From NCBI GenBank assembly GCA_964036045.1, contig OZ038379.1, positions 110,919,611 through 110,983,610 on the forward strand: a stretch of 64,000 nucleotides of DNA. The letters run 5' to 3'. The stretch is from Eutreptiella sp. 'Long Island Sound 2002' (taxonomy: Eukaryota > Euglenozoa > Euglenophyceae > Eutreptiales > Eutreptiaceae). Shown here in pieces: positions 39,064-64,000 of the stretch. The notes under the pieces were generated by a model that worked only from the letters and a program-made list of their open reading frames with translations, did not search any database and was not told the origin of the DNA. Position 1 is the first letter of the stretch. Every line of letters starts with the position of its first letter. Position numbers and translations under genes: made by a program.

Positions 39064-40000
39064 CTACACCGGCGTCGGCGCGTGGGGTTGTGGATGCAGG
39101 GGTTCGGGCCATGCCACGTCTGCGTTGGGCGCCCGGTGTTCGCCATCGACTAGCACCTCGGGGAGGATGTACATGAGGGCTGCCGGCAGGTGGTACGCCG
39201 CCCCTTGCGTGGGGGGGGACAGGTCGCCCTTACGGTGGTAGCCGCCCACGTGGAGGTGTAGGCCGTCTAGGGTCACTCGCGGCCCAGTGTGGGCGTCCTG
39301 TTTGGCCCTCGTGGGGTGGATGAGCCGCAAGCGGGGGTCCCGCGTGCCGGTGGTGTGGAACAGGTTGAGCAGGGCGTCGCGCCACCCGGGGTGGTTGGTG
39401 GGCTCTTGCTCGCGGCAGCAGTAGTGGAGGTGCTCGTCGGCGCACTGGTTGAGGCGGTCCCTCACGGCCGCTGGCCACCGGTCGTCGTTTTCCGGAAAGG
39501 GGTGGTGCGGGCCTTGGTGTCCGTGCCAGGGCGTCGCATACGGTACCGTTAGGCGGCATGTGTCTCGGTGCCGTAACTTGGCGGTGCGCAGCGTGATATA
39601 CATTTTTTTTGCAATCAATGTCCACTTTAAGGCCCGTACCGGGCAGAAGCATTGTCCATAGGCTGCACGTGTCGTATGTAAACCCGCATGCGGCACAGGG
39701 GGCCTGATACTGCCTGGGGTTAGCAAGGGGCACTGGCTGACTGTGGGGCAGGTGGTGTGTGGGACACGGTCGCGTCGCACGCATACCCGCGGGGCTGCAG
39801 TGTGCGCTGACGAGCCAGCGATGCTTCTTGTTTGGGGGGGGGTGAGGCCAGTGGGCCTGATGTTCGCGTGTGTAGGAGTGGATGAGGTGACCAGGGGTGG
39901 CGGTGGTGAAGGGGAGGCGCTGTGGGTGTACCTTTGGTCCCCTGGGGGGGGGGGGGGGCTGCAGGTAGCTGGTGCTTTTGGCTGCGAGGTAGCGTTTCAT
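39064..40000 (-). pseudogene. Hypothetical protein, one frame break
   Basis: I do not recognise this protein. The C-terminal part (39,780 to 39,064, stop just below) has ordinary protein composition, with stretches such as FPENDDRWPAAVRDRL and HVGGYHRKGDLSPP. The N-terminal part lies in another frame, from an ATG at 40,000, and contains a possible zinc ribbon, CAACGFTYDTC. The frames meet at an A8 run on the coding strand (39,603-39,610). Counting one surplus A, 40,000-39,064 is exactly 312 codons. It may be an intact gene with an assembly error or a recently broken one. A proline run encoded by the G-tract near 39,943-39,958 could be another unreliable spot. An upstream exon is possible. It does not overlap the retroelement relic on the other strand. 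Confidence 0.45.
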
Positions 40001-40169
40001 GTATAAGCTAATGTGTGGCAAGCGGGGGGGGGCGCACCTAGAGGGGGGGGGGGTGTGTGCTGATGCGCCGACGGCGCGGCTGTCGTCTGTGCAGATGGTC
40101 GCATCTGAGGAAAGGATGGGGCTTGGTGGAGACTTGATCTGTGTACGGAGGCACACTAGAACGTGCAGG

Positions 40170-40800
40170 AAAGGAATGAGGAATGAGGAACTTCAGTGAA
40201 TCCGGACTAACTCGGGCGACTGTGGCTCGGGCAGGGCAGGGCAGGGCAGGATAGCAGGAAGTCCTTGGTGCCGCTGACTGGGGTGTTCTGGGGGCACTGC
40301 CTGTCAAAGGGAAGTGCAGGCAACCCCGGATGTCTTTGGCGTCGCTGGAACATCACCAGGGGCTGGCGGAAGTGGCTTTCAGCCTGGGATTCGACGCCCT
40401 GATGTATCCACGCACAGAGGGTACAGAATACAGGGCGTCAATTCGTTGAGATGTCTGAGGAGCACCATGCTGATAGTGGTGTGAACGCCCTGGTGGCACC
40501 GTAGAATATGCATCACCGAAAGGCAGTATCAGGCAAGTAGGGTGGGCTGGAACGTCTCTGGCCACTGGAATATGAGCTAGGGGCTGGCTTGAATGGCATA
40601 CAAGGATCTGGGGCTGACGCCCTGTCCTGTTCTCGCGCAGAGGGTACAGGATGTATCAGGATGTATCGATCCGCGGGAGGATCGTGATGTCTGGGAAACA
40701 CCGTGTGCTGACAGAGTCTCAAAAACCATGGCGTCACCTGAGAACATGCGCTCACAGAAATGTAGCTTCAGGCAAGTAGGGTAGGCTGGCAGGACGTACC
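40170..40800 (+). repeat. Degenerate ~220-240-bp tandem repeat
   Basis: Landmarks recur: AGGGGCTGGC at about 40,357 and 40,578, GAGGGTACAG at about 40,417 and 40,639, and CAGGCAAGTAGGGT at about 40,531 and 40,772. Roughly two and a half diverged units are present. No gene is supported. A short (GGGCA)n-like run lies near 40,232. Confidence 0.6.
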
Positions 40801-42812: not shown

Positions 42813-42817
42813 ATGTT

Positions 42818-42842
42818 CTTAGGCGGCCCTATACGCACGTAG
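42818..42842 (+). repeat. Left terminal inverted repeat
   Basis: Starts CTTAGGCGGCCCTA and ends GCACGTAG. It is preceded without a gap by the target duplication ATGTT (42,813-42,817). Confidence 0.85.
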
Positions 42843-43020
42843 CAAAATTGCCACATTTCCCAAATGGGTACCACCCCAAAACGGGGGCTGAAAAACCACT
42901 TTGAAAAATTGCACAATTGTGCTTTGCATAGAACACCCCCCAAAAAAAGTGAATTGTCCAAAATGACTGTGTGTAGGGGGTACAACGTGTGCCAGTCAAA
43001 AGTCATGTATCCCCTTCAAA

Positions 43021-43040
43021 TTTGGGCACTGCAGTGTCCA
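43021..43040. promoter_or_regulatory. Palindromic motif, site 1 (left subterminal)
   Basis: GGGCACTGCAGTGTCC, one change from the consensus palindrome. It is centred about 213 bp inside the left end. Confidence 0.6.
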
Positions 43041-43349
43041 TCCAAAGAAAAATCGAATTCTTCCAAATCATCCGCTGCTGCATTTCAAACCATGCCGTAA
43101 AATGCAACCTAAAAAATGAAGCAAGGAGGACGACAGGCAAACGCATGCAAAAGTCTGGTTGGCTTTTTGTTACCGCGTCTGTTGACACAGTCACTGTGAT
43201 TGTATGCGAAGCGTCAAGAATGATGCACCACCAGTGGTGCCGACCAACAACGGAGGCGCCGCCAGTGCAGGCAATCCAATAATAAATGACAACAACAATG
43301 CCTGCAAAAGAAATGGCCCAGCGGGGTACAAAAAGGGCGAGTCGCTGAG

Positions 43350-43372
43350 TTTGGGCACTGCACCGCCCAAAA
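43350..43372. promoter_or_regulatory. Palindromic motif, site 2 (left flank)
   Basis: GGGCACTGCACCGCCC, the most decayed copy, with the outer arms TTT/AAA retained. It lies just past the 3' end of gene A. Confidence 0.5.
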
Positions 43373-43496
43373 TTACCAAAACATGAAAAAGGGCACAAGT
43401 CTCACACCTGCATAGAAAAGGACGCGCGACAGTGTGCAAATCGAGGCGAAAAAACTACTGACATGGTCACAGGCAGTGCCAACCGCACAACGCAGT

Positions 43497-44965
43497 CTAC
43501 TTCTTCTTTGGTGGAGCCTTCTTACCCTTGGCCTGACCTACTTTGGCGTGAAACAGATTGAGGGGGGTACTGTCCTTGGCCTTTTTGGCTGGCCTTTTGG
43601 GGGGATCATCAACCTCATCCCCACTATCGTCGGAGGACGGCTTCTTCTTGCTGGGGGTGCTCCTCTTCTTGCTGTCACCACCGACCAGCACGATCTCGTC
43701 ATCCTCCTCTTCCTCCACATCGTCCCCCCCCTCCTCATCTTCCCCTTCCCCAGGCCGCTGCACCACAACTGGCATACAGTCCCTAATCCTTGGCATCCAA
43801 GCGTCCCAGTTAACCAAGTAGACACAGTCCATCTCCTGCACATACGCCATGTACAGCAGTATTTCATCCATTTGGTCGCCATGCAGTCCCGTCAACGGCC
43901 GCAGAGTGTATGGGTTGAGCACTGCAGTGCAAAAATTAGGGTCGCATCGAATTTGGGCACTGCAGTTCCCATGAACACCAAAAGACGACGAAAACAGGTG
44001 CTCAGAGGACATAATACCTTCACCGGCAGTCTTCTCAAAGGTGTCAATAAACTCAGCCACGCGGCCACCAGATATCTGCAGTAATGAGACCAGTGGTCTC
44101 CAATTTTTCCAGATTGAGCCCTGGCAGGGATACAGTGTTGGACAGGCCACAGGTACGCAAAGGACTGACAACGGTGGTCTCATCGTGCATCTCTCATACC
44201 ACAGATGTTTTCTCGCCCAGCCGGCCACACTTCCGCAGAGCCACCGGCAGCATCTCTTTCGCTTTGCCCTTGTGCACTTCAGTCCAAATTCGAGCGGCCA
44301 CTTGTCCCATACTCAGCTTGCTCACTGAGTGTTGTACCGCATTGTGATCGCCTCCAATAATCTCTCTGATGTCCACAGGACAGTCGTGTCTGATCTCCTC
44401 GCAGTAGACGTGTTGTAACCAGTCCGGCAGTGCCCGTGACTTCTCACAGTATTCTCGGTGAAGTCTTTGGAGTGCACTCAGGATATGAGCCCCGCCCAAG
44501 CAGTAGGGGATTTCAGCTGATAGAAAAATGCACCACAGGGAGATGGTAGATGGGGGATATCAGCGAGATGGGCACTGCAGTGCCCAAACGACCAGACTGT
44601 GTGAAAATTACGACGCGTGTGTGACAGGATGGTAGTGTACCTTCGTTTCGCCATATGAGAATGTTTGAGATAGGCCGGCAGGGTGGATTTGTCCTCAGGC
44701 TTGCGATCCGCGATAGTACTGAGTCCTCGTCCCTCTCTCTGGTCTGCCCACGCGTGAGGTCGGTGTCAAACTTTATCTTGGTCAGCTGTATCTTGACCAG
44801 CTCCTTTTTGATCCACGTTGTCCGGAATGTTTCCGTTGCCTGGTCTGTCCCCGGCCGCTTCACTGGAGCCTGCCCCGACTGCGCCCGTGTCTTCTCTGCT
44901 GTGTGAACGGCTTGCGATGTGGTCTGCTGCTGGTCCCCTTCCGGCAGTTCGGTATTCGAAGGCAT
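43497..44965 (-). CDS. Transposon gene A, 374 aa, four exons
   Basis: Exons are 44,965-44,641, 44,516-44,200, 44,075-44,018 and 43,921-43,497. Their lengths (325, 317, 58 and 425) sum to exactly 375 codons including the stop, and the three introns (124, 124 and 96 nt) all begin GTA and end CAG. Joining restores smooth protein at each seam (for example RNE-AEIPYCLGG and EKTSV-ISGGRVAEF) where the unspliced frames hit stops. I recognise no domain. The C-terminal ~84 residues are strikingly acidic and then lysine-rich (DDVEEEEDDE, PPKRPAKKAK, KKAPPKKK), which suggests a nuclear, DNA- or chromatin-associated protein. The start is the ATG 15 nt beyond the stop of gene B. Lying inside an intact transposon, it is probably an accessory factor or the C-terminal half of a composite transposase. 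No gene outside the element accompanies it. Confidence 0.8.
43917..43932. promoter_or_regulatory. Palindromic motif, site 3 (3' splice site of intron 3)
   Basis: GAGCACTGCAGTGCAA. The central CTGCAG provides the AG acceptor of intron 3 of gene A. Confidence 0.55.
43922..44017 (-). other. Gene A intron 3 (96 nt), with two palindromes
   Basis: Begins GTATTATG and ends TTTTTGCACTGCAG, with CTAAT near the 3' end as a possible branch region. It contains palindrome copy 4, and copy 3 supplies the 3' splice site itself. Confidence 0.75.
43952..43970. promoter_or_regulatory. Palindromic motif, site 4 (inside intron 3)
   Basis: GGGCACTGCAGTTCCC, one change from consensus. It lies within intron 3 of gene A, about 35 bp from site 3. 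Confidence 0.55.
44076..44199 (-). other. Gene A intron 2 (124 nt)
   Basis: Begins GTATGAG and ends ATTACTGCAG. It lacks the full palindrome but carries a different small hairpin, GAGACC-act-GGTCTC (44,086-44,100), just before the acceptor. Retaining it introduces an in-frame TGA at once. Confidence 0.78.
44517..44640 (-). other. Gene A intron 1 (124 nt), with palindrome
   Basis: Begins GTACAC and ends TTTTTCTATCAG, with a pyrimidine-rich 3' end. A perfect palindrome copy lies near its middle. Confidence 0.75.
44568..44588. promoter_or_regulatory. Palindromic motif, site 5 (inside intron 1)
   Basis: Perfect core GGGCACTGCAGTGCCC at 44,570-44,585. Confidence 0.6.
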
Positions 44966-44980
44966 AGCTTAGCAAAGGGG

Positions 44981-47355
44981 CTAACAAAGGGTCACACGAC
45001 ACACTACAAAAGGCCACAGGGCTGCAAATTGTTGATTTACAGGCTTCCAATGTTGATGACTACTGGCAGCGCTCGACGATTGAACACAGATGGCAGAAAT
45101 AGCATCACAGTCGGATGCACCTGGTAAAAATCGAGGGTCAAACTGATTCAGCTCCGAAAGGACAGCCACGGGGGCGTCGGAATCATCACTGTGAACAGAC
45201 ACTGCTTCTGGAGGGGGGGGGTCCGGGTCCCATCCATCATCACCCACAAAATCAGCAGCCCTCAGGTCTGGATCTCCGGCTGCCCCACCAGCAGGGGGGG
45301 GGGGGGTCCTCATCACTGTCACTGTCGCCATCAGCATTGGGGGGGGCGGGTATCCGGGCGGGGTCCCTTTGCGTAAAAGCGCGTGCTGGCCGGCGTCGCT
45401 TGTACCGGTCTGGTGTATTACATGCGCGTAACATGTCCTGTGCTTGTGCTACTGTTGTGTCCATACCACCTGGAGGACGCTGTGGCACGTGTCTACCCAG
45501 CTCTGTCATCACATCAGCATCAACTTCAACAGGTTTAACAAGTGTCTGCAATGTCTTGGCACATAGATCTCGGTAATGCTCTGCAGTGAGCACCGTATCT
45601 AGTGCGCAAGGAAAATCCATCTTGGCAGGATCCCACCTGTCTTGCACGATACTCGACTTCTGACTGGACCAGACCAGGGGGGGGTATAACACCAACATCG
45701 AATCGCGCCATCAATCTGGTGAAACGACGATCAACCGGTTGTGGCAGTCCCTTGGGAACATTAACGTACTGCAGGTCCTTCGGGGTCTGGTGTGCAACGG
45801 GAGTGAGTATAAACAGGTCATGCACCTGTTGCAACGTACAGTTCCCAGGGTGTTGTGCCATTAAGTGCACAACACGGCTTAACAGGGCCTCACACGGTTC
45901 CTCACTGTGTGCCACCCCAGGTAAGCGGGCAAACCACTGGGACCACAATAGCCTAGCAACAACAATGGTGCGCACATATTCAACCTTGTCCTCATAACCT
46001 AGGGTGAGCCTCAGAAGGACGTGTAGACAACGGCTCAACAATGGCCCTGCAGCGTGCTGCTCTCCCTGTGCAGACCAATGACAATCCCTCACTTGCGACC
46101 CAATAATAAACAAGGCTGGAATGTAACCATACAGCAGTGTTACCAACCCTTGCACCTGTGTAAGAAGTGTGCTGTGATTAGCGTTACCGGGTTGGTGCAA
46201 ACCCCTTAGAGTCTGTAACTTCTGTTCCAAAGGTTGGCGCCACTTATGGGCCAAGTGCAAGAGCACCAGAATCATACGCTCCATATAGATGAGTTTCGGA
46301 AGGTTGGGCGCTGCAGTGCCCAAATTGAGTGAACCATAGGAAAAATAGGTAAATAAAGGGAAGAATCTTCTGTAGCACAGGGTTACACAATATTTATATG
46401 GGTGCCATGTGCCGTACACTACCGGGGTACGTGTAATGAACAGGGGCACGTTGTACCGAGCATAGCTGATGCTGTAAACGAGCTTAAGGACACGGTAGTG
46501 AATATTTTCGTCGACCAACAATGGAAGACGGTGCTGTGTGTGCTGCTGCACCTCCTGGAGCCCGTGAATAATAGAGACAAGGTCGGGGGTAGCGGACACA
46601 GTTAGGTCTGTGAGAAAAAAGGGGGTCCAAGCTGGGCTGGTAACATTATCCCGTCGTATGTCCAAGGGACAACGAACATGTTGAAGGCGGATGGGGTCGT
46701 CCATCAACCCTTGCAAGCCATCAATGAAGTTTTTATGGCTCTGCACCAACAAGTCTGCAGTGTACCCAATCCTCTGCCGCAAAACCGAGAGGCTAGGAAA
46801 AGACGGCACAATGTCGACAGGTCGTTTCAAGAGTATGATAGCAGCAACTATACAATTAAGGGACCGGTTCTCATTACCAGGCACAGGCCGGAAGTTACGT
46901 CTATAAAAATTATCAAACCATAGAACAGCGGGTTTACCTTCCAAGGTCTGCCAAAGACTGGTGCACGCAGTTGCTCCTTGAACTGCAAAGGAGGGTACAT
47001 GGTAAGAACATTGACCCATGTGAGCCAAACACCTACGTTGCACACGACTCTTGGGTTGAACACCTACAGCCCTCTTGGCACGTGGACGACACCTCTTGTG
47101 TAGAACAGAACATATATTAAAAATCTCTTGCTGAGCAACACGGAACCATTGGTCCGGCAGACAATTAACGGTGCGCCTGTCCCTTTGTTGGATGTATTCA
47201 CCAACAGACCGCCTACTTCTCCACTCCAACCGGAGATCTAACACCCACGTACAAAACACATCGGCACCCTTATCCACACCCACAGCCTCAGATAGATCCC
47301 CCTTTGAAGCATATACCTTCGAACTAAGGAACTGCCGGAAGGGAGCCGCATCCAT
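44981..47355 (-). CDS. Transposon gene B, candidate transposase (~790 aa)
   Basis: The frame runs from ATG 47,355 to TAG 44,981 with two frame changes, at a C8 run (45,677-45,684) and a C13 run (45,294-45,306). Treating each as one surplus C gives exactly 791 codons. No family is recognised with certainty. Features that suggest a DDE-type transposase are hydrophobic strands ending in Asp at AVLWFDNFYRRNF (D148) and LPLLVDENIHYRVLK (D282). These are followed by GTWHPYKYC (H318) and a helical region with KLIYMERMI (E359), about the order expected of an RNase H-fold catalytic core. Residues 80-120 are Cys/His/Arg-rich and may bind DNA. The C-terminal ~150 residues are acidic and proline-rich. 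The open frame extends 55 codons upstream, but that part looks non-coding and a plausible 3' splice site (CCTGCGAACAG) lies just before ATG 47,355. Its position inside the TIRs is the main support for the role. Confidence 0.68.
46304..46325. promoter_or_regulatory. Palindromic motif, site 6 (within gene B coding frame)
   Basis: GGGCGCTGCAGTGCCC lies in the open frame of gene B, encoding NLGTAAP at about residues 344-350 between two conserved-looking blocks. Either the motif is tolerated in the protein or an unannotated intron removes it. Confidence 0.55.
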
Positions 47356-47652
47356 GGACAAAAGTCCTGTTCGCAGGCAGCAAGGGTAAGGAGACAAAGA
47401 AAACAGAGACACTATCACAAAACAAACTTGATGCGGCATAGACCAAAAGCAGCTAGCGAAGATCCAAACAATGTATCTCCCAATGGACGTGGAACGTTCC
47501 AAAGCCTGGGTACACTCCAAGGTGGCATTCAGACAACCGGCAATATATTTCCAATGAGCAGAGGATGAGTACCAACGTCTGATGATTCATACGTCCTTTG
47601 TCAGGTGTTACGCAATGGGAACCAATAGGAGTGAAATACGGATTTTTAAATT

Positions 47653-47676
47653 TTTTGGACACTGCAGTGCCCAAAA
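47653..47676. promoter_or_regulatory. Palindromic motif, site 7 (right flank)
   Basis: GGACACTGCAGTGCCC with TTTT/AAAA outer arms, about 468 bp inside the right end and upstream of gene B. Confidence 0.6.
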
Positions 47677-47888
47677 GTACTGGAAGTCCATTTTCAAGTG
47701 CACATTTGGACAGGAATGGAAGTGATTGGGCAAGGTACATTGTACGTGGCCTTCCGAGTATAACACCGCGGTGCGATGACCCATGGATAACGGGTATGCC
47801 AAGTTTTGATGCATGCTGCTGCAGTATGACATCACCTGTGGAGATGACTACAGAGGTGTACTGGAGAACCCACTGAAAAAAGCCATTT

Positions 47889-47922
47889 AAAATTTTTGGG
47901 CACTGCAGTGCCCAAAAATTTT
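47889..47922. promoter_or_regulatory. 34-bp perfect palindrome, site 8 (right subterminal)
   Basis: The best copy: all 34 bases are self-complementary, with core GGGCACTGCAGTGCCC and outer arms AAAATTTTT/AAAAATTTT. It is centred about 228 bp inside the right end, nearly mirroring site 1. Confidence 0.7.
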
Positions 47923-48108
47923 GAATGATACAATTTTCAGCCCGGAATAGGGGGTGTATACGTACACCTCTGGAAGCAACAAAAGGCAAGGTTGTTGTAT
48001 CCCACGATGAAAATCCACGTGGGGTTGGCCGAAAAAATGATATGCTTTTTTGGGGGGCAAAAAACTGATGTTGAAATCGGCATGAATCGTGCCTTTTAGC
48101 AACGAAGT

Positions 48109-48133
48109 CTACGTGCGTAAAGGGCCGCCTAAG
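48109..48133 (-). repeat. Right terminal inverted repeat
   Basis: Reads CTTAGGCGGCCCTT...GCACGTAG on the minus strand, with one difference from the left end (T for A at position 14). It is followed without a gap by ATGTT (48,134-48,138). Confidence 0.85.
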
Positions 48134-48138
48134 ATGTT

Positions 48139-49363: not shown

Positions 49364-52095
49364 CACACACACACACAAAATAGGGTAAAAACTACATAAA
49401 TACGGGCTAAAACATGCTGTACATAGCTTGAATGGTCATTTTAGGTGATCACCGCATCAAAAAAATTGCTTAAGTAATTTCGAAAACTTCCATTTTTGTG
49501 AGCTGCGTAGGGTGAAAAACTGCATAAGGACGATATGTACCCATCCCTTGGGAGACCCCCCCTCCACCCACCCGAACCTAATACCCAAATAGGGTGGAAA
49601 CCATGTAAATACGGCCTAAAACATGCTTTACATAGTTTGGATGGTCATTTCAGGTGGTCACAATATCAAAAAAACAAGATTCGAAAAATTCGATTTGTGA
49701 GCTGTATAGGCTAAAAAACTGCATTAGCAGGTTGTGTACCAATCCCTTGGGACCCCCCCCCCCCCCGGACTTAAGACCCGAATAGGGTGAAAAACACGTA
49801 AATACGGCCTAAAACATGCTTTACATACCTTGAATGGTCATTTTAGGTGATCAGAATATCATGAAAACAAGTTTCGAAAACTTCCATTTTTGAGCTGCCT
49901 GAGGTGAAAAATTGCATAAGCACGTTGTGTACCAATCCCTTGGAAGCCCCCCCCCCCACCCCGGACCTAATACGCAAATAGGGAGAAAAACACGTAAATA
50001 CGGCCTAAAACACGCTTTACATAGCTTGGATGTTCCTGTTAGGTGATCAAAATATCAAAAAAAAAACAAGTTTCAAAAACTTCGATTTTTGAGCTTCCCA
50101 CGGTGAAAAACTGCATAAGCAGGTTGTGTACCAATCCCTTGGGTGCCCCCCCCCCCCCCCCCGTGCGGCCAATACCCAAAAAGGGTGAAAATCATGTAAA
50201 TACGGCCTAAAACATGCTTTACTTACCTTGGATGGTCATATTGTGTAGTCAGAATATCAAAAAAATAAGGTTTAGAAACTTCGATTTTTGAGCTGTCCAG
50301 AGTGAAAAACTGCATAAGCAGGTTGTGTACCAATCCCTTGGGAGCCACCCCCCCCCCCACCCCACCCAATACCCAAATAGGGTGAAAAATACGTAAATAC
50401 GGCCTGAAACATGCTTTGCATAGCTTGGATAATCATTTTAGGTGATCACAATATCAAAAAAACAAGTTTCGAAAACTTCTATTTTTGAGCTGTCCAAGGT
50501 GAAAAACTGCATAAGCAGGTTGTGTACCAATCCCTTGGGAGCCCCCCCCCCCCCCCCAACCCCACCCAATACCCAAATAGGGTGAAAAATACGTAAATAC
50601 GGCCTGAAACATGCTTTGCATAGCTTGGATAATCATTTTAGGTGATCACAATATCAAAAAAACAAGTTTCGAAAACTTCTATTTCTGAGCTGTCCAGGGT
50701 GAAAAACTGCATAAGCAGGTTGTGTACCAATCCCTTGGGAGCCCCCCCGCCCCCCGGCCAATACCCAAATAGGGTGAAAAATACGTAAATACGGCCTAAA
50801 ACATGCTTTACATAGCTTGGGTGGTCATTTTAGGTGAAGATAATATCAAAAAAACAAGTTTCGAAAACTTCGATTTTTGAGCTGTCCAGAGTGAAAAACT
50901 GCATAAGCAGGTTGTGTACCAATCCCTTGGACGCCCCCCCCCCCCCCACCCAATACCCAAATAGGGTGAAAAATATGTCAATACGGCTTGAAACATGTTT
51001 TATATAGCTTGGATAGTCATTTCAGGTGATCAGAATATCAAAAAAATAAGTTTCCAAAAATTCGATTTTTGAGCTGTCCAGAGTGAAAAGCTGCATAAGC
51101 AGGTTGTGTACCAATCCCTTGGGAGCCACCCCCCCCCCCCCACCCCACCCAATACCCCAATAGGGTGAAAAATACGTAAATACGGCCTGAAACATGCTTT
51201 GCATAGCTTGGATAATCATTTTAGGTGATCACAATATCAAAAAAACAAGTTTCGAAAACTTCTATTTTTGAGCTGTCCAAGGTGAAAAGCTGCATAAGCA
51301 GGTTGTGTACCAATCCCTTGGGTGCCCCCCCCCCCCCCCCCCCACCCAATACCCAAATAGGGTGAAAAATACGTAAATACGGCCTGAAACATGCTTTGCA
51401 TAGCTTGGATAATCATTTTAGGTGATCACAATATCAAAAAAACAAGTTTCGAAAACTTCTATTTCTGAGCTGTCCAGGGTGAAAAGCTGCATAAGCAGGT
51501 TGTGTACCAATCCCTTGGGAGCCCCCCCCCCCCCCCCCCACCCCACCCAATACCCAAATAGGGTGAAAAATACGTAAATACGGCCTGAAACATGCTTTGC
51601 ATAGCTTGGATAATCATTTTAGGTGATCACAATATCAAAAAAACAAGTTTCGAAAACTTCTATTTCTGAGCTGTCCAGGGTGAAAAACTGCATAAGCAGG
51701 TTGTGTACCAATCCCTTGGGAGCCCCCCCGCCCCCCGGCCAATACCCAATTAGGGTGAAAAATACGTAAATACGGCCTAAAGCATGCTTTACATAGCTTG
51801 GATGGTCATTTTAGGTGAAGATAATATCAAAAAAACAAGTTTCGAAAACTTCGATTTTTGAGCTGTCCAGAGTGAAAAACTGCATAAGCAGGTTGTGTAC
51901 CAATCCCTTGGGAGCCCCCCCCCCCCCCCCCCCACCCAATACCCAAATAGGGTGAAAAATATGTCAATACGGCTTGAAACATGTTTTATATAGCTTGGAT
52001 AGTCATTTCAGGTGATCAGAATATCAAAAAAATAAGTTTCAAAAAATTCGATTTTTGATCTGTCCAGGGTGAAAAACTGCATGAGCATTCACTAG
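49364..52095 (+). repeat. ~197-bp tandem array with variable poly-C tract, about 13 units
   Basis: The marker GTTGTGTACCAATCCC recurs at intervals of about 190-204 bp from 49,519 to 51,881. Each unit combines an A/T-rich half (TACGGCCTAAAACATGC, ATATCAAAAAAACAAG, GAGCTGTCCAG, GTGAAAAACTGCATAAG) with a C-run of 6-20 followed by CACCCAATACCCAAATAGGG. Some consecutive units are nearly identical (around 50,400-50,700 and 51,350-51,700), indicating recent amplification. The first unit is the most diverged. No gene is present. Confidence 0.92.
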
Positions 52096-54918: not shown

Positions 54919-56290
54919 ACTTATCATGCCGTCTACTGGAGTTACCGGGCATCTCGCGCCGACAGGTGGTTCCTGCCTCGCTCGATCCCGTGGGTCCCAG
55001 GGCTGCCTGAGGTAGCCCACAGCATGACGGAGGACCCAGAGGACCGGGGATACCGGTCAACCAGGCTTTGGGGGCAGTGGCAACTGCAAAGCGTTAGCAT
55101 TAGCAACGGCGACGGACGCTGGCCCGTTTGTTCGCCGGGGGTAAGGGGCAAGGCAAAGCAGCGCAGCAGCATCGCAACAAGCAGAAAGCAAGGGCATCTC
55201 TGTCCGTCGCAAAGCGGCAACCAAGGAACAAAGCAGCACGCATGCGGCGAAGCGAGAGCTGACCCTCCGTCGTTCGCGTACCCCCGCCACCGTGGAGACA
55301 TCCATCACTCATGACCCCATGGAATCCATTGCCGTCTGCGACCTCGAGACTGCCCACCACCCTGACTCCACGTATCCCTCTGCCAGCACGCAATAGCCCG
55401 CATGTGCATAGCCAGGATTTCTTGGGAGGCTCCAGCCTAGCCTGGCCCTCAGCTTTCATCGCCCCCATGTCCCCACAATGTACGCCACCGTCCCACCGCA
55501 CCAGTCCCCTAGTATAGTACAGAAACACGGTATCAATTCCACGTCCCCGTGGCCCTGTGCTGCCCCCACACCCCTGATATTACCATGCTGGCACCCCATG
55601 TCAGGGGCCAGCGCCCAATCTGCGTCGAGGTAACCACTTGCCCACATATAATATATCTTGAGGGTCTACAGGGGGGGACGCCGGCCGCTACGCGACGGGA
55701 GTGCGCAACTCGTGAATATCGCTCGCTGGGATTCGGGCTGGTGGGTGCCGTAGCTTGGTTATCGACCCCCTGTAGGGGTACCCACCAGAGGCTCGCCCCG
55801 GGCTGTGGTAACCAGGTGCACCTCATCTGGCCCACATACAATGCCCTGGCGCCTACCCTTGACCCTTACCTGCACTGATTGGCCAGCTTCCCGTGGTTGC
55901 GCCTCTTCCGCCACAGCAGCGGCCAGGCCGCAGGTTCGGCCCCCACCGACGACGTGGCGAGCCTACTTATAGCATTGGCCCGCGCGTCACCCCCCGGACC
56001 ACTCAGCATGCCGCTCCTCTGCCCTCCTCGCCTCTAGCCGACCGGACTGGCGCCCCCCAGGGGTAAGCCGTTACAGTGGTGAGGCGACTGCATACTCTTC
56101 GCTACGACGACGCGCAGTACCGCCGTTGCCACGCCGACGCCACCTGCTAGCCGCCACGACACGCACTACCGCAACCACAAGGTCATGGTCAGAGGTTGGA
56201 CTATGTACATGCCCGCAAGCACGGTCCCTCTAGTTTGTTAACGGGGCCAGGGGATGCCCCCGCGCTCCCCCTGAGTTGTTAGAGGGGTCA
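54919..56290. other. No confident gene
   Basis: Open frames of 60-142 codons overlap on both strands without conserved motifs. One plus-strand frame, 55,549-55,878, ends in fairly ordinary protein-like sequence (HLIWPTYNALAPTLDPYLH), but nothing supports a function. Confidence 0.4.
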
Positions 56291-56600
56291 GGGGGACACC
56301 CCAGTACCGCATGCATCCCCGTGCTCCCCCACTGTACGGTTCCCCAGTACCGCCGCGTTCCCCCACCGTACGGACCCCAGTACCGCCGCGTACCCCCACC
56401 ATACGGTCCCCAGTACCGCCGCGTATACCCCCACGATGCCAGTACACCGTCATCTGGAACTTCCCCGCTGCTCCCCCACTGTACGGTTCCCCAGTAACGC
56501 CGCGTACCCCCACCGTACGGATCCCAGAGCCGCCGCGTTTACCCCCAAGACTCCAGTACGCCGCCACCTGGAACTCCACGTGCCCCCCGTGAGCGCTCCT
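56291..56600 (+). repeat. 27-bp tandem repeat within a ~140-bp repeat
   Basis: Units of CCCCAGTACCGCCGCGT plus a CCCCACCGTACGG-like stretch recur about every 27 bp. A longer segment beginning CCCCCACTGTACGGTTCC recurs about 148 bp later. In one plus-strand frame the unit encodes a PPYGPQYRRV-like repeat, but the frame does not persist. Confidence 0.7.
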
Positions 56601-57004
56601 CCCATGCTGCCGCATCTTCTCCACGACGCCCGCCATACTGTCCCCCTGACGACCCCACTGTCATATCCTTCACGCACACACCTCCGCCCCGTCGCCGCTC
56701 CCGGGGCCTGCAGGGCTGACCCCGCAACCCCGTGTAACACTCCCAGGGGGCGCCGCAACGCTGTAACCCCCATACAACTCCGTGCACCCCCGGTGTATCC
56801 CGAGCAACCACGCTCAACACTGCCGTAGCCGGGCCGCCAGTAGAGACCCCGGTGCCATGGGAATACCCTACAGGGGTTTGGGCCTTATTACCCTGGTCGG
56901 GACGACCCATGACACCTCACTGTTGTATGCGGCGACCCGGGGCAGGCGGGTGAAGCATCCCTGTCCGACCCTCATGCACGGGGGCAGTACGGCTCACTAT
57001 CAGG

Positions 57005-57446: not shown

Positions 57447-58661
57447 AGGAGCACGTGCCGGCGGGAGAAATTGCCAGACACGCTCTCCCTGGGCAGGGCG
57501 CAAGGGAGCAGTCGGCCGGCGTCACGCTGGCCGGGCGTGTGCCGACGACGACCGAGGGGGGGGGGGGGGGCGCCGTGGAGTGGAGGGGGGGGGGGTGTGT
57601 GTGCGTGGAGGAGGGTGTGGCTACCTGGGGGCGCGCGTCGCTGTGAGAGGGACCACCTGCCCATGCGACCCTGGTTCCCTCCCCCGCCGTGGGGGGAGGG
57701 CGTGCGCACCTGTGCGAAACGGAGGCGGGATGGGGGGCGGGGTGGAGGGACCACCTGTCCGGGGACCTGCGGGGCCCCGGTTCCCCTCGCTTCCAGCCGC
57801 CACTCCCCCGCTACAGGGGAGGGGGCTACGTCCTGTGCGGAGGTGGAGTAAGGGGGGTGGAGGGGGCGGGGACTATGTATGGTCTATCCCCTGGTGCCCG
57901 TCCCTGTGTCCCGTGTGCGGGAGGCCGCGCGGCACGGCCGGCGGGGGGGCTCAGGCCTGGGCCGGGCGCGTGGGTAGCGGCGGGCGGCCGAGGCGGAGGC
58001 GGCGCCATGCGGGTGCGGGGCCCGTGGCGGTCGCGGGGCGGTGTGGGCGGACCGGCCGGCGGCCAGCGGTGGCCCTGAGAGCCCCACTCCATGGGGTCGG
58101 CGGGCGCGCCGGGGGCACGCGCGCCGCGCTGGCCTGGCCGTGGGGGGCGCGTGTGCAAGGGCGTCGGCGCGCCCGTTGCGGGCCCCACTGCGGGCCGCGG
58201 GACCAGCGGCTAGCTGGAAGCGTGGCCTGGGGGCCGAGGCCTGGGCCGGGCGCGTGGGTAGCGGCGGGCGGCCGAGGCGGTGGCGGCGCCATGCGGGTGC
58301 GGGGCCCGTGGCGGCCGCGGGGCGGCGCCGGCGGACCGGCCGGTGGTCGGCGGCGGCCCTGAGAGCCCCACTCCATGGGGTCGGCGTACACGTTGGGGGG
58401 GGGGGGGGGCTGTGGGCTGGGGGGTGTGTGCGCGCGCGAGGGGGACGGGGGTGCAGTGAGCTCAGCCGCGGAGCGTCACCGTGCGGCCGACCGGGCGGAG
58501 GAGCGGCCGGGGGTGGCCAAAGTTGGGCGGGGAGCCCGGGGCGCTCGAGGTGTCGGCGGGGCCGCGGTCGGCGGTGGGGCCCGCACCCCGCTCAGCGGGG
58601 ACGAATCCCGCCGAGCATCATCCACGGGGGCGAATCCTGGTGGAGGCGGGGGGGGGGGGGG
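57447..58661. repeat. GC-rich region with a 283-bp-spaced duplication
   Basis: 57,953-58,103 recurs at 58,237-58,386 with about 95% identity by eye (GGCCTGGGCCGGGCGCGTGG through CACTCCATGGGGTCGG). G-runs of 9-14 occur at about 57,558, 57,587, 58,396 and 58,648. Long open frames on both strands reflect the lack of A/T rather than genes. Confidence 0.65.
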
Positions 58662-61600
58662 CGCGCATGGGCGCGGCATGGGGCTGCGCAGGGGCGCAGT
58701 AGCGTGGGGTCGCGCAGGGGCGCAGCGTGGGGCTGCGCAGCGGCGCAGCGCGGGGCTGAGCAGGGGCGCAGCGTGGGGCTGCGCGGGGGCGCAGTAGTGT
58801 GGGGCTGCGCAGGGGCGCAGCCCGGGGCCGCGCACGGGCGCGGCATGGGGCTGCGCAGGGGTGCAGTATCGTGGGGATGCGCAGGGGCGCAGCGTGGGGC
58901 TGCGCAGGGGTGCAGCGCGGGGCTGAGCAGGGGCGCAGCGTGGGGCTGAGCAGGGGCGTAACGTGGGGCTGCGCAGGGGCGCAGTAGTGCGGGGCTGCGC
59001 AGGGGCGCAGCGTGGGGCTGCGCAGCGGCGCAGCGCGGGGCTGAGCAGGGGCGCAGCGTGGGGCTGCGCAGGGGCGCAGTAGTTTGGGGCTGCGCAGGGG
59101 CGCAGTAGTGTGGGGCTGCGCAGGGGCGTAGCGCGGGGCCGCGCTTGGGCGCGGCGTGGGGCTGCGCAGGGGTGCAGTAGCGTGGGGCTGCGCAGGGGCG
59201 CAGCATGGGGTTGCGCAGGGGCGCACCGCGGGGCTGAGCAGGGGCGCAGCGTGGGGCTGCGCAGGGGCGCAGTAGTGTGGGGCTGCGCAGGGGCGCAGCG
59301 TGGGGCTGGGCAGGGGCGCAGCGTGGGGTCGCTCCGGAGTGCAGTGTGGGGCCGCGCATGGGCGCGGGATGGGGCCGCGCAGGGGCGCGGCGTGGGGCCG
59401 AGCAGGGGCGCAGCAGCGCTGGGCTGCGCCTGGGCGCAGCAGCGCTGGGCTGCGCAGGGGCGCAGCGTGGGGCTGCGCGGGGGCGCGGTGCAGGGTTGCG
59501 CAGGGGCGCAGCAGCGTGGGGCTGCGCAGGGGCGCAGCAGCGAGGGGCTGCGCCGGGGCGCGGCATGGGGCCTTGGAGGGGCGCAGCACCGTGGGGCTGC
59601 GCAGGGGCGCAGCGTGGGGCTGAGTAGGGGCGAATCGTGGGGCTGCGCAGGGGCGCAGTAGTGTGGGGCTGCGCAGGGGCGCAGCGTGGGGCTGGGCAGG
59701 GGCGCAGCGTGGGGTCGCGCCGGAGTGCAGCGTGGGGCCGCGCATGGGCGCGGCCTGGGGCCGCGCAGGGGCGCGGCGTGGGGCCGAGCAGGGGCGCAGC
59801 AGCGCTGGGCTACGCAGGGGCGCAGCGTGGGGCTGCGCGGGGGCGCGGTGCGGGGTTGCGCAGGGGCGCAGCAGCGTGGGGTTGCGCAGGGGCGGAGCAG
59901 CGTGGGGCTGCGCCGGGGCGCGGCATGGGGCCGTGAAGGGGCGCAGCAGCGTGGGGCTGCGTAGGGGCGCAGCGTGGGGCTGCATAGGGGCGTAAAGGTT
60001 TGGGGCGGCGCGGGGGCGTAGTAGTGCGGTGCTGCGCAGGGGCGCAGCGCGGGGTTGCGCAAGGGCGCCACAGCGTGGGGCTCGGCGGGGGCGTAGCACT
60101 GTGGGCGCAGCAACCTGGGGCTGCGCAGGGGCGCAGCAGCGTGGGGCTGCGCTGGAGGGTAGCTTGGGGCTGCGCAGGGGCGCAGCGGCGTGGGGATGCG
60201 CAGGGGAGCAGCGGCGTGTGGGGCTGTGCAGGGGCGTAGCAGCGTGGGGCTGGGCAGGGGCGTAGCAGCGTGGGCGCAGTAACCTGGGGCTGCGCAGGGG
60301 CGCAGCAGCGTGGGGCTTCGCTGGAGGGCAGCGCGGGGCTGCGCAGGGGCGCATCGGCGTGGGGCTGTGCAGGGGAGCAGCAACGTGGGCTGCGCAGGGG
60401 TGTAGCAACCAAGGCTGTGCAGGGGCGTAGTAGCGTGGGGTTGCGCAGGGGCGCGGCAGCCAGGGCTGTGCAGGGGCGCAGCAGCGGGGGCGCAGTAACC
60501 TGGGGCGGCGCACGGGCGCAGCAGCCTGGGGCTGCGCTGGAGGGCAGCGTGGGGCTGCGCAGGGGCGCAGCAGCGCGGGGCTGTGCGGGGGAGCAGCAGC
60601 GTGAGGCTGCGCTGGAGGGCAGCGTGGGGCTGCGCAGGGGCGCAGCAGCGCGGGGCTGTGCAGGGGAGCAGCAGCGTGGGCTGCGCTAGAGGGCAGCGTG
60701 GGGTTGCGCAGGGGCGCAGCAACCTGGGGCTAGGCAGGGGCTCAGTAGCGTGGGGCCGCGGAGGGGCGCGGCAGCCAGGGCTGTGCAGGGGAGCAGCAGC
60801 GTGAGGCTGCGCTGGAGGGCAGCGTGGGGCTGCGCAGGGGCGCAGCAGCGCGGGGCTGTGCAGGGGAGCAGCAGCGTGGGCTGCGCTAGAGGGCAGCGTG
60901 GGGTTGCGCAGGGGCGCAGCAACCTGGGGCTGGGCAAGGGCTCAGTAGCGTGGGGCCGCGCAGGGGCGCGGCAGCCAGGGCTGTGCAGGGGCGCAGCAGC
61001 GTGGGGCTGGGCAGGGGCGTGGCAGCCTGGGCGCAGCAACCTGGGGCGGCGCAGGGGCGCAGCAGCCTGGGGCTGCGCTGGAGGGCAGCGTGGGGCTGCG
61101 CAGGGGCGCAGCAGGGTGGTGCTGCGTAGGGGCGCAGCAGCCCGGGGCTGGGCAGGAGCGCAGTAGCGTGGGACTGCGCAGGGGCGCGGCAGCCAGGGCT
61201 GTGCAGGGGCGCAGCAGCGTGGGGCTGTGCAGGGGCATAGCAGCGTGGGCGCAGCAACCTGGGGCTGCGTAGGGGCGCAGCAGCGTGGGGCTGCGCTGGA
61301 GTGCAGCGTGGGGCTGCGCAGGGGCGCAGCAACGTGGGGCTGCGCTGGAGTGCAGCGTGGGGCTGCGCAGGGGTGCAGCAGCGTGGGGCTGCGCTGGACT
61401 GCAGCGTGGGGCTGCGTAGGGGCGCAGCAGCGTGGGGCTGCGCTGGAGCGCAGTGTGGGGCTGCGTAGGGGCGCAGCAGCGTGGGGCTGCGCCGGAGTGC
61501 AGCGTGGGGCTGCGCAGGGGCGCAGCAGCGTGGGGCTGCGCTGCAGTGCAGCGTGGGGCTGCGTAGGGGCGCAGCAGCGTGGGGCTGCGCTGGAGTGCAG

Positions 61601-64000
61601 CGTGGGGCTGCGTAGGGGCGCAGCAGCGTGGGGCTGCGTTGGAGTGCAGCGTGGGGCTGCACAGGGGTGCAGCAGCGTGGGGCTGCGCTGGAGTGCAGCG
61701 TGGGGCTGCGTAGGGGCGCAGCAGCGTGGGGCTGCGCCGGAGTGCAGCGTGGGGCTGCGCACGGGCGCAGCAGCGTGGGGCTGCGCTGGAGTGCAGCGTG
61801 GGGCTGCGTAGGGGCGCAGCAGCGTGGGGCTGCGCTGGAGTGCAGCGTGGGGCTGCGTAGGGGCGCAGCAGCGTGGGGCTGCGCTGGAGTGCAGCGTGGG
61901 GCTGCGTAGGGGCGCAGCAGCGTGGGGCTGCGCTGGAGTGCAGCGTGGGGCTGCGCAGGGGTGCAGCAGCGTGGGGCTGCGCTGGAGTGCAGCGTGGGGC
62001 TGCGTAGGGGCGCAGCAGCGTGGGGCTGCGCTGGAGTGCAGCGTGGGGCGGCGCAGGGGCGCGGCAGCGTGGGGCTGCGCTGGAGTGCAGCGTGGGGCTG
62101 CACAGGGGCGCAGCAGCGTGGGGCTGCGCTGGAGTGCAGCGTGGGGCCGCACAGGGGTGCAGCAGCGTGGGGCTGCGCTGGAGTGCAGCGTGGGGCTGCG
62201 TAGGGGCGTAGCAGCGTGGGGCTGCGCTGGAGTGCAGCGTGGGGCTGCGTAGGGGCGCGGCAGCGTGGGGCTGCGCTGGAGTGCAGCGTGGGGCTGCGCA
62301 GGGGCGCAGCAGCGTGGGGCTGCGCTGGAGTGCAGCGTGGGGCCGCGCAGGGGTGCAGCAGCGTGGGGCTGCGCTGGAGCGCAGCGTGGGGCTGCGTAGG
62401 GGCGCAGTAGCGTGGGGCTGCGCTGGAGTGCAGCGTGGGTCTGCGTAGGGGCGCAGCAGCGTGGGGCTGCGCTGGAGTGCAGCGTGGGGTTCCGTAGGGG
62501 CGCAGCAGCGTGGGGCTGCGCTGTAGTGCAGCGTGGGGCTGCGTAGGGGCGCAGCAGCGTGGGGCTGCGTTGGAGTGCAGCGTGGGGCTGCGCCGGGGCG
62601 CAGCAGCGTGGGGCTGCGCTGGAGTGCAGCGTGGGGCTGCGTTGGGGCGCAGCAGCGTGGGGCTGCGCTGGAGTGCAGCGTGGGGCTGCGTAGTGGCGCA
62701 GCAGCGTGGGGCTGCGCTGGAAGCGCAGCGTGGGGCTGCGTAGGGGCGCAGCAGCGTGGGGCTGCGCAGGGGCGCAGCAGCGTGCAGCTGCGCTGGAGGG
62801 CAGTGTGGGGCTGCGCAGGGGTGCAGCAGCGTGGGGCTTAGCAGGGGCGCGGCAGCCAGGGTTGTGCAGGGGCGCAGCAGCGTGGGGCTGTGCAGGGGCG
62901 TAGCAGCGAGGGCGCAGCAATCAGGGGCTGCGTAGGGGCGCAGCAGCGTGGGGCTGCGCTGGAGTGCAGCGTGGGGCTGCGCAGGGGCGCATCAGCGTGG
63001 GGCTGCGCTGGAGGCAGCGTGGGGCCGCGCAGGGGTGCAGCAGCGTGGGGCTGCGCTGGAGTGCAGCGTGGGGCTGCATAGGGGCGCAGCAGCGTGGGGC
63101 TGCGCTGGAGTGCAGTGTGGGGCTGCGTAGGGGCGCAGCAGCGTGGGACTGCGCCGGAGTGCAGCGTGGGGCTGCGTAGGGGCGCAGCAGCGTGGGGCTG
63201 CGCTGGAGTGCAGCGTGGGGCTGCGCAGCGGCTCAGCAGCGTGGGGCTGCGCTGGAGTACAGCCAGGGGCTGCGTAGGGGCGCAGCAGCGTGGGGCTGCG
63301 CTGGAGTGCAGCGTGGGGCTGCGCAGGGGCGCATCAGCGTGGGGCTGCGCTGGGGTGCAGCGTGGGGCTGCGTAGGGGCGCAGCAGCGTGGGGCTGCGCT
63401 GGAGTGCAGCGTGGGTCTGCGTAGGGGCGCAGCAGCGTGGGGCTGCGCTGGAGTGCAGCGTGGGGTTGCGTAGGGGCTCAGCAGCGTGGGGCTGCGCTGG
63501 AGTACAGCCAGGGGCTGCGTAGGGGCGCAGCTGCGTGGGGCTGCGCTGGAGTGCAGCGTGGGGCTGCGCAGGGGCGCATTAGCGTGGGGCTGCGCTGGGG
63601 TGCAGCGTGGGGCTGCGTAGGGGCGCAACAGCGTGGGGCTGCGCTGGAGTGCAGCGTGGGTCTGCGTAGGGGCGCAGCAGCGTGGGGCTGCGCTGGAGTG
63701 CAGCGTGGGGCTGCGCAGGGGTGCAGCAGCGTGGGGCTGCGCAGGTGCGCAGCAGCGTGCAGCTGCGTTGGAGGGCAGCGTGGGGTTGCGCAGGGGTGCA
63801 GCAGCGTGGGGCTGCGCAGGGGTGCAGCAGCGTGGGGCTGTGCAGGGGTGCAGCAGCGTGGGGCTGCGCAGGGGTGCAGCAGCGTGGGGCTGCGCACGGG
63901 TGCAGCAGCGTGGGGCTGCGTAGGGGCGCAGCAGCGTGGGGCTGCGCTGGAGTGCAGCGTGGGGCTGCGCAGGGGCGCAGCAGCGTGGGGCTGCGCCGGG
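58662..64000 (+). repeat. GC-rich hairpin minisatellite; regular 49-bp array from ~61,240
   Basis: Built from ~23-26-base modules that begin GTGGGGCTGCGC. From 58,662 to about 61,230 module length and order are irregular, with local duplications (59,277 against 59,663, offset 386; about 60,577-60,777 against 60,777-60,977). From about 61,240 to the window end a 23+26-base dimer of 49 bp repeats some 55 times. Most modules contain an inverted repeat such as GCTGCGC-AGGG-GCGCAGC. The unit contains no stop codon on the minus strand, so frames of up to 748 codons are open there. The right end is outside the window. Confidence 0.93.

Follow-up and report, generated by a model that had tools for sequence, protein, structure and literature searches.

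A probable cut-and-paste transposon family of Eutreptiella with CTTAG termini, exact 5-bp target site duplications and a putative DDE transposase

The element described here lies at positions 42,813 to 48,138 of a 64,000-nucleotide stretch of contig OZ038379.1 (assembly GCA_964036045.1) from the euglenophyte alga Eutreptiella sp. 'Long Island Sound 2002'; this whole stretch is called the window. A spliced-leader exon of Euglena has 2566 + 2523 places in the genome (at most 2 mismatches), and its reversed control 0. Probably the element belongs to a cut-and-paste DDE transposon family, of which the window holds an internally deleted, non-autonomous copy with gene B as the transposase, perhaps of an undescribed superfamily. 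The window copy measures 5316 bp and is bounded by 25-bp terminal inverted repeats (TIRs), which are complementary at 24 of 25 positions and flanked on both sides by a perfect ATGTT target site duplication (TSD). An inverted-repeat listing gives the TIR pair with one more matching base (26 nt, 96%, 5266 nt apart). The ends were located as follows.

42813..42817, left target site duplication ATGTT (sequence and flank comparison of copies)
42818..42842, plus strand, left terminal inverted repeat CTTAGGCGGCCC..., 25 bp (inverted-repeat pair; same end at 40 scored places)
48109..48133, minus strand, right terminal inverted repeat, 25 bp, 24/25 to the left one (inverted-repeat pair; same end at 40 full-length places)
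48134..48138, right target site duplication ATGTT (sequence and flank comparison of copies)

These TIRs, their CTTAG start and the ATGTT duplications had been described in an earlier note on this DNA and are present as stated there. Ends of the form CTTAG...CTAAG are precise and recurrent, as in class II elements. A long terminal repeat retrotransposon, of the kind with 5-bp TSDs, was considered and rejected: the ends are short and inverted, and no direct repeat of the two ends occurs among the repeat families of the window.

Searches of the genome revealed many relatives of the window copy. The left 283 bases are 96–100% identical at 40 or more places (at least 40; best 40 of 557 candidates scored), and the right 284 bases match at full length with 97–100% identity, again at 40 places at least (best 40 of 533 candidates scored); a further 51 rows of the right-end search are short side matches. 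With the gene B protein, at least 67 scored places of 92–100% identity were obtained (best 67 of 8436 candidates). Three fuller copies are 6518–6524 bp long. Identity to one of these, C3, is 98.3 and 98.7% for the other two, 97.9–98.1% for a fetched copy of 3069 bp and 96.8–98.0% for the window copy. The range among the copies compared (96.8–98.7% identity to C3) supports a recent spread of the family, in line with the young age that the earlier note had proposed. In four derivatives, of 1287, 1717, 3069 and 5316 bp, no less than 535 bp of the left end and 220 bp of the right end is retained. Short derivatives with both ends are the pattern that would be expected from a trans-mobilised cut-and-paste transposon. 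In fetched piece L052, at about position 658, a second family TIR stands some 840 bp beyond the end of another copy, which suggests adjacent or nested insertions.

A perfect duplication with a longest match of exactly 5 bp was found in all ten copies for which both ends were available. As a control, unpaired left and right flanks were combined, and equal 5-mers occurred in 5 of 893 combinations. For an empty-site test, the flanks of eight copies were joined with one TSD and compared with the sequences fetched up to then. Uninterrupted counterparts were obtained for the joined flanks of two of the eight copies, giving three empty paralogous sites, each with a single TSD copy. One of these sites, belonging to another copy, is inside the window (55660–56398, junction at 56254); the second insertion has its empty counterparts in a neighbouring duplicate and in L017. 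The earlier note's expectation that empty sites carry a single target copy is thus borne out at the family level, by paralogous sites of two insertions. For the other six copies, the window copy among them, no empty site was present among the sequences fetched up to then. The window region 55660–56972 is itself a repeat unit, 86–93% identical to the flanks of another transposon copy, and acts as its empty site.

A second family carries the same kind of ends. A DNA pattern for the gene B motif YGxWHPYKY, with the proline codon of the main family excluded, was found at 311 genome places (control 0). Six of these pieces were fetched and fell into three groups of two. The second family starts with CTTAGACGAACC, at most 1 base from the onset of homology between its two copies, and the segment of its protein that was compared shares 31% identity with P0001 across 294 residues. 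Its TIR was detected at 109 genome places, with 0 for the reversed control pattern. Ten opposed TIR pairs, 2.4–7.2 kb apart, were chosen from the first 100 TIR places before their flanks were seen, except for the pair at C1:185560817, whose left flank was already contained in L078; other pairs, some of them farther apart, and single hits were left out. All ten pairs are flanked by a perfect duplication of exactly 5 bp, compared with 0 of 90 mismatched pairs. Hence copies of both families, ten of ten each, end at their TIRs with duplicated flanks, as the earlier note's reading had demanded. In group C, the terminus CTTAGGCGGCCGAAACAGG is seen in L075 alone and is degenerate at the same place in L074 (CGTAGGCTGCCC); blastn homology between these two pieces begins about 130–170 bases inside the terminus. 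In group V (L076, L077), neither piece yielded an open frame upstream of the motif or a terminus. Since the CTTAG ends and the 5-bp TSD are the same despite deep divergence of the proteins, gene B, or the gene pair, would appear to set them. This constancy despite divergence is also the strongest reason to rank the group as a superfamily. At C2:110917136-110917162, some 2.4 kb before the window begins, stands another motif of this kind of transposase, YGVWHPYKY.

The candidate transposase gene occupies the right-hand part of the element.

45047..47355, minus strand, gene B, encoding a putative DDE transposase; frame interrupted at a run of G, after about residue 560 (open reading frames, copy comparison)

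In copy L070 gene B is open over 769 aa, and its start codon is backed by the homologs P0003 and P0005. Its motifs are WFDNFYRR, LVDENIHY, YGxWHPYKY and SEExCEALL, and its conserved acidic residues stand in the order expected of DDE enzymes. Pfam scans of the open gene B copy and of eight relatives gave no relevant transposase model, only chance-level hits; here the E limit was 10, yet the HMMER filters discard most matches above about 0.1. Across all scans (seven window open reading frames, gene B, spliced gene A and the eight relatives) the chance-level hits were CAAP1, Ter, JAMP and FlpD. A PDB sequence search with gene B alignment A2 returned only ribosomal L14 at E 8.2, and alignment A3 had no match. 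The earlier note had supposed that the transposase family may be undescribed, and these searches are in line with it. Viral contigs were scanned with profile A3, and none of the 116 pattern stretches obtained is a relative.

A structure model of gene B aligns best with P element, Hermes, Transib, IS256-type and RAG1 enzymes, among the structural families listed by VIA-align. Gene B therefore probably folds like the P element, hAT and Transib transposases, as judged from this model. Two points weigh against a DDE transposase: the Foldseek scores of the model are weak, and its low-to-moderate confidence weakens the RNase H fold call. In the mechanism that we propose, the product of gene B would be a DDE enzyme. 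Its core would be RNase H-like, with a largely helical segment inserted ahead of the last acidic residue. Its catalytic residues would be D148, D282 and E486 or E489 (P0001 numbering). The transposase would cut at the TIRs and link these to the target strands with a stagger of 5 bp; repair of the gaps would then yield the 5-bp duplication. More tentatively, the family may form an undescribed superfamily with fold-level kinship to the P element, hAT and Transib/RAG, gene A may encode an accessory DNA-binding or regulatory protein, and internal palindromes may be bound by one of the two proteins.

Deep kinship with the P element is the leading alternative, although an unlikely one. In this case gene B would be a P-type transposase of a divergent lineage, having no recognisable THAP domain and making 5-bp instead of 7–8-bp TSDs. 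The Drosophila P element (PDB 6p5a, 6pe2) is indeed among the best structural matches of the gene B model; however, its Z differences to Hermes and Transib are below 2. No P-element, THAP or TNP-like model was found in the Pfam scans. P elements make 7–8-bp TSDs, whereas the TSD is exactly 5 bp in both families here, and the CTTAG termini are not P-like.

It is likewise doubtful that the superfamily has already been catalogued, for example in Repbase, and is only missing from Pfam and the literature searched; the element would then be a new family of a described kind. Repeats of E. gracilis have been modelled earlier, and according to a passage on its chromosome-level assembly 32.7% of the genome was left as unknown repeats (PMC11252322), which would suit this explanation. 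On the other hand, no paper describing the transposon was found among the open-access titles and abstract starts listed. For E. gracilis, the passages at hand mention Merlin only, a DNA transposon with 8–9-bp TSDs and GG termini (PMC8101967). Merlin is similar in being a TIR element reported from a euglenid, but neither its TSD length nor its termini were found here, and the Pfam scans contain no IS1595-type model.

A divergent hAT member of the hAT5 kind, or a member of the CMCT clade (Transib/CACTA), would be quite improbable. Both include 5-bp duplications: the hAT TSD is 8 bp, or 5 bp in hAT5, so that 5 bp would suit hAT5 only, and Transib also gives a 5-bp TSD. Against hAT, no hAT model was found in the Pfam scans of gene B or its relatives, and the CTTAG termini differ from hAT ends. 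Transib/RAG1 and the CMCT clade have C(2)C and H(3-4)H motifs between the second D and the last E. In contrast, the eight-sequence alignment A3 has neither motif and no invariant Cys, and the sole invariant His between D282 and E485 is H286. The termini of the CMCT clade are mostly 5'-CA..TG-3', compared with CTTAG..CTAAG (CT..AG) in both families here. What the families here have in common with hAT5 and Transib is thus the 5-bp TSD, while they differ from both in the domain, motifs and termini tested.

Two other kinds of element were compared. The KDZ elements (Kyakuja, Dileera, Zisupton) are eukaryotic and have a large transposase, as is the case here. However, published passages give 8-bp TSDs for Zisupton and 7-bp TSDs without TIRs for Kyakuja (PMC12730594), in contrast to 5 bp here, and the Pfam scans contain no KDZ model. 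Ginger2 is described in such passages with a 4–5-bp TSD and TG..CA termini (PMC10045372, PMC10741241), as against CTTAG here. TSD length and termini, compared with values from these passages or from general knowledge, argue against most described superfamilies.

We consider the chances balanced that the families form an undescribed superfamily. Its hallmarks would be CTTAG termini, TSDs of exactly 5 bp and a DDE transposase with the four gene B motifs; it would comprise several diverged families in this genome and further database proteins, and would work with a gene A partner and with 22-bp palindromes as binding sites in introns, spacers and coding frame. Measured against Pfam, PDB and published values, with Repbase outside the comparison, novelty at this rank has about even odds. 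A transposase family with its own ends, its own TSD length and several diverged lineages would name a part of the unknown repeats. If the fold assignment holds, it would be an additional lineage in the P/hAT/Transib-like group that includes the RAG recombinase. A gene-delivery tool for an alga might also be derived from this transposon family.

The earlier note had regarded the window copy as apparently complete and possibly active; the first view does not hold, and the second is not supported. Compared with the 6.52-kb copies, about 1.2 kb of gene A is missing: C3 positions 1041–2243 are absent, and the gap is inside gene A. In addition, gene B has a 661-aa open frame that parts from the majority of scored places beyond residue 614, which is about residue 560 when counted from the start codon. 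Seven other scored places match along all 661 residues of the window frame, so that the frame break may stem from the length of the G run, whether genuine or misassembled. With the loss in gene A and the broken gene B frame, the window copy is probably non-autonomous and could move only with proteins of other copies. The deletion and the gene A features are given below.

43845..43850, junction of the 1.2-kb internal deletion (about 43847), short shared GCC; the window resumes at C3 position 2244 after 1040
43497..44965, minus strand, gene A remnant, C-terminal tail first acidic, then basic, about 1.2 kb lost (open reading frames, copy comparison)
43922..44017, minus strand, predicted intron of gene A with two palindromes (GT..AG and frame)
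44076..44199, minus strand, predicted gene A intron free of palindromes, with an ambiguous 3' end (GT..AG and frame)
44517..44640, minus strand, predicted first intron of gene A with one palindrome (GT..AG and frame)

In a fuller copy gene A encodes about 742–789 aa, depending on splice choice, the splice sites being predictions from GT..AG and frame. A homolog search with gene A returned only P0002 (94% identical over 17%), and the PDB sequence search only a chance-level match to Rsc1 (E 2.4). It is very improbable that gene A is the transposase and gene B the accessory protein. Gene A does share its TIRs with gene B, its tail is basic and it is without known relatives. But it is gene B that distant relatives conserve, that recurs alongside a 5-bp TSD in the second family and that shows the DDE-like order and fold match, and no such relatives were obtained for gene A.

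Two same-strand genes and nothing else had been noted inside the element. The two genes, both on the minus strand, were recovered, but the element also contains eight palindromes (core GGGCACTGCAGTGCCC, at most 3 mismatches). All eight in the window are inside the element, and 1.04 were expected in the window.

43024..43039, palindrome, 1 mismatch to GGGCACTGCAGTGCCC (pattern search, as for those below)
43353..43368, palindrome, 2 mismatches
43917..43932, palindrome, 3 mismatches, across the 3' end of a predicted gene A intron
43955..43970, palindrome, 1 mismatch, in the predicted gene A intron 43922..44017
44570..44585, palindrome, exact, in predicted intron 1 of gene A
46306..46321, palindrome, 1 mismatch, within the gene B frame (GTAAP here, GTAVP in other copies)
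47657..47672, palindrome, 1 mismatch, upstream of gene B
47898..47913, palindrome, exact, upstream of gene B

The full copies (n = 3) have nine palindromes each, in three of four predicted gene A introns, in non-coding parts and once in the gene B frame. The in-frame GTAVP is kept at the same place in P0003, which is 38% identical to gene B. The palindrome 22-mer has 373 exact genome places, counted without regard to membership in the transposon family, and the reversed control 0. The palindromes are dispensable in part: the 1287-bp derivative is without the right-hand ones. That they are protein-binding sites is a guess. An introner origin was considered and rejected, because they also occur upstream of gene B and in its frame and are thus not intron-specific.

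The surroundings of the element are rich in repeats. More than half of the window (1–35399) is a 412-bp tandem satellite of about 86 copies with 94% matches, and a 192-bp tandem array of about 14 copies occupies 49378–52087. At 39064–40192, two open frames (310 and 320 aa) overlap on the minus strand and have no Pfam match at E 0.1. The region 58658–64000 is a GC-rich 23/49/98-bp minisatellite (GGGGCTGCGCAGGGGCGC...) that is open in several frames, and its long open reading frames are probably artefacts of the minisatellite.
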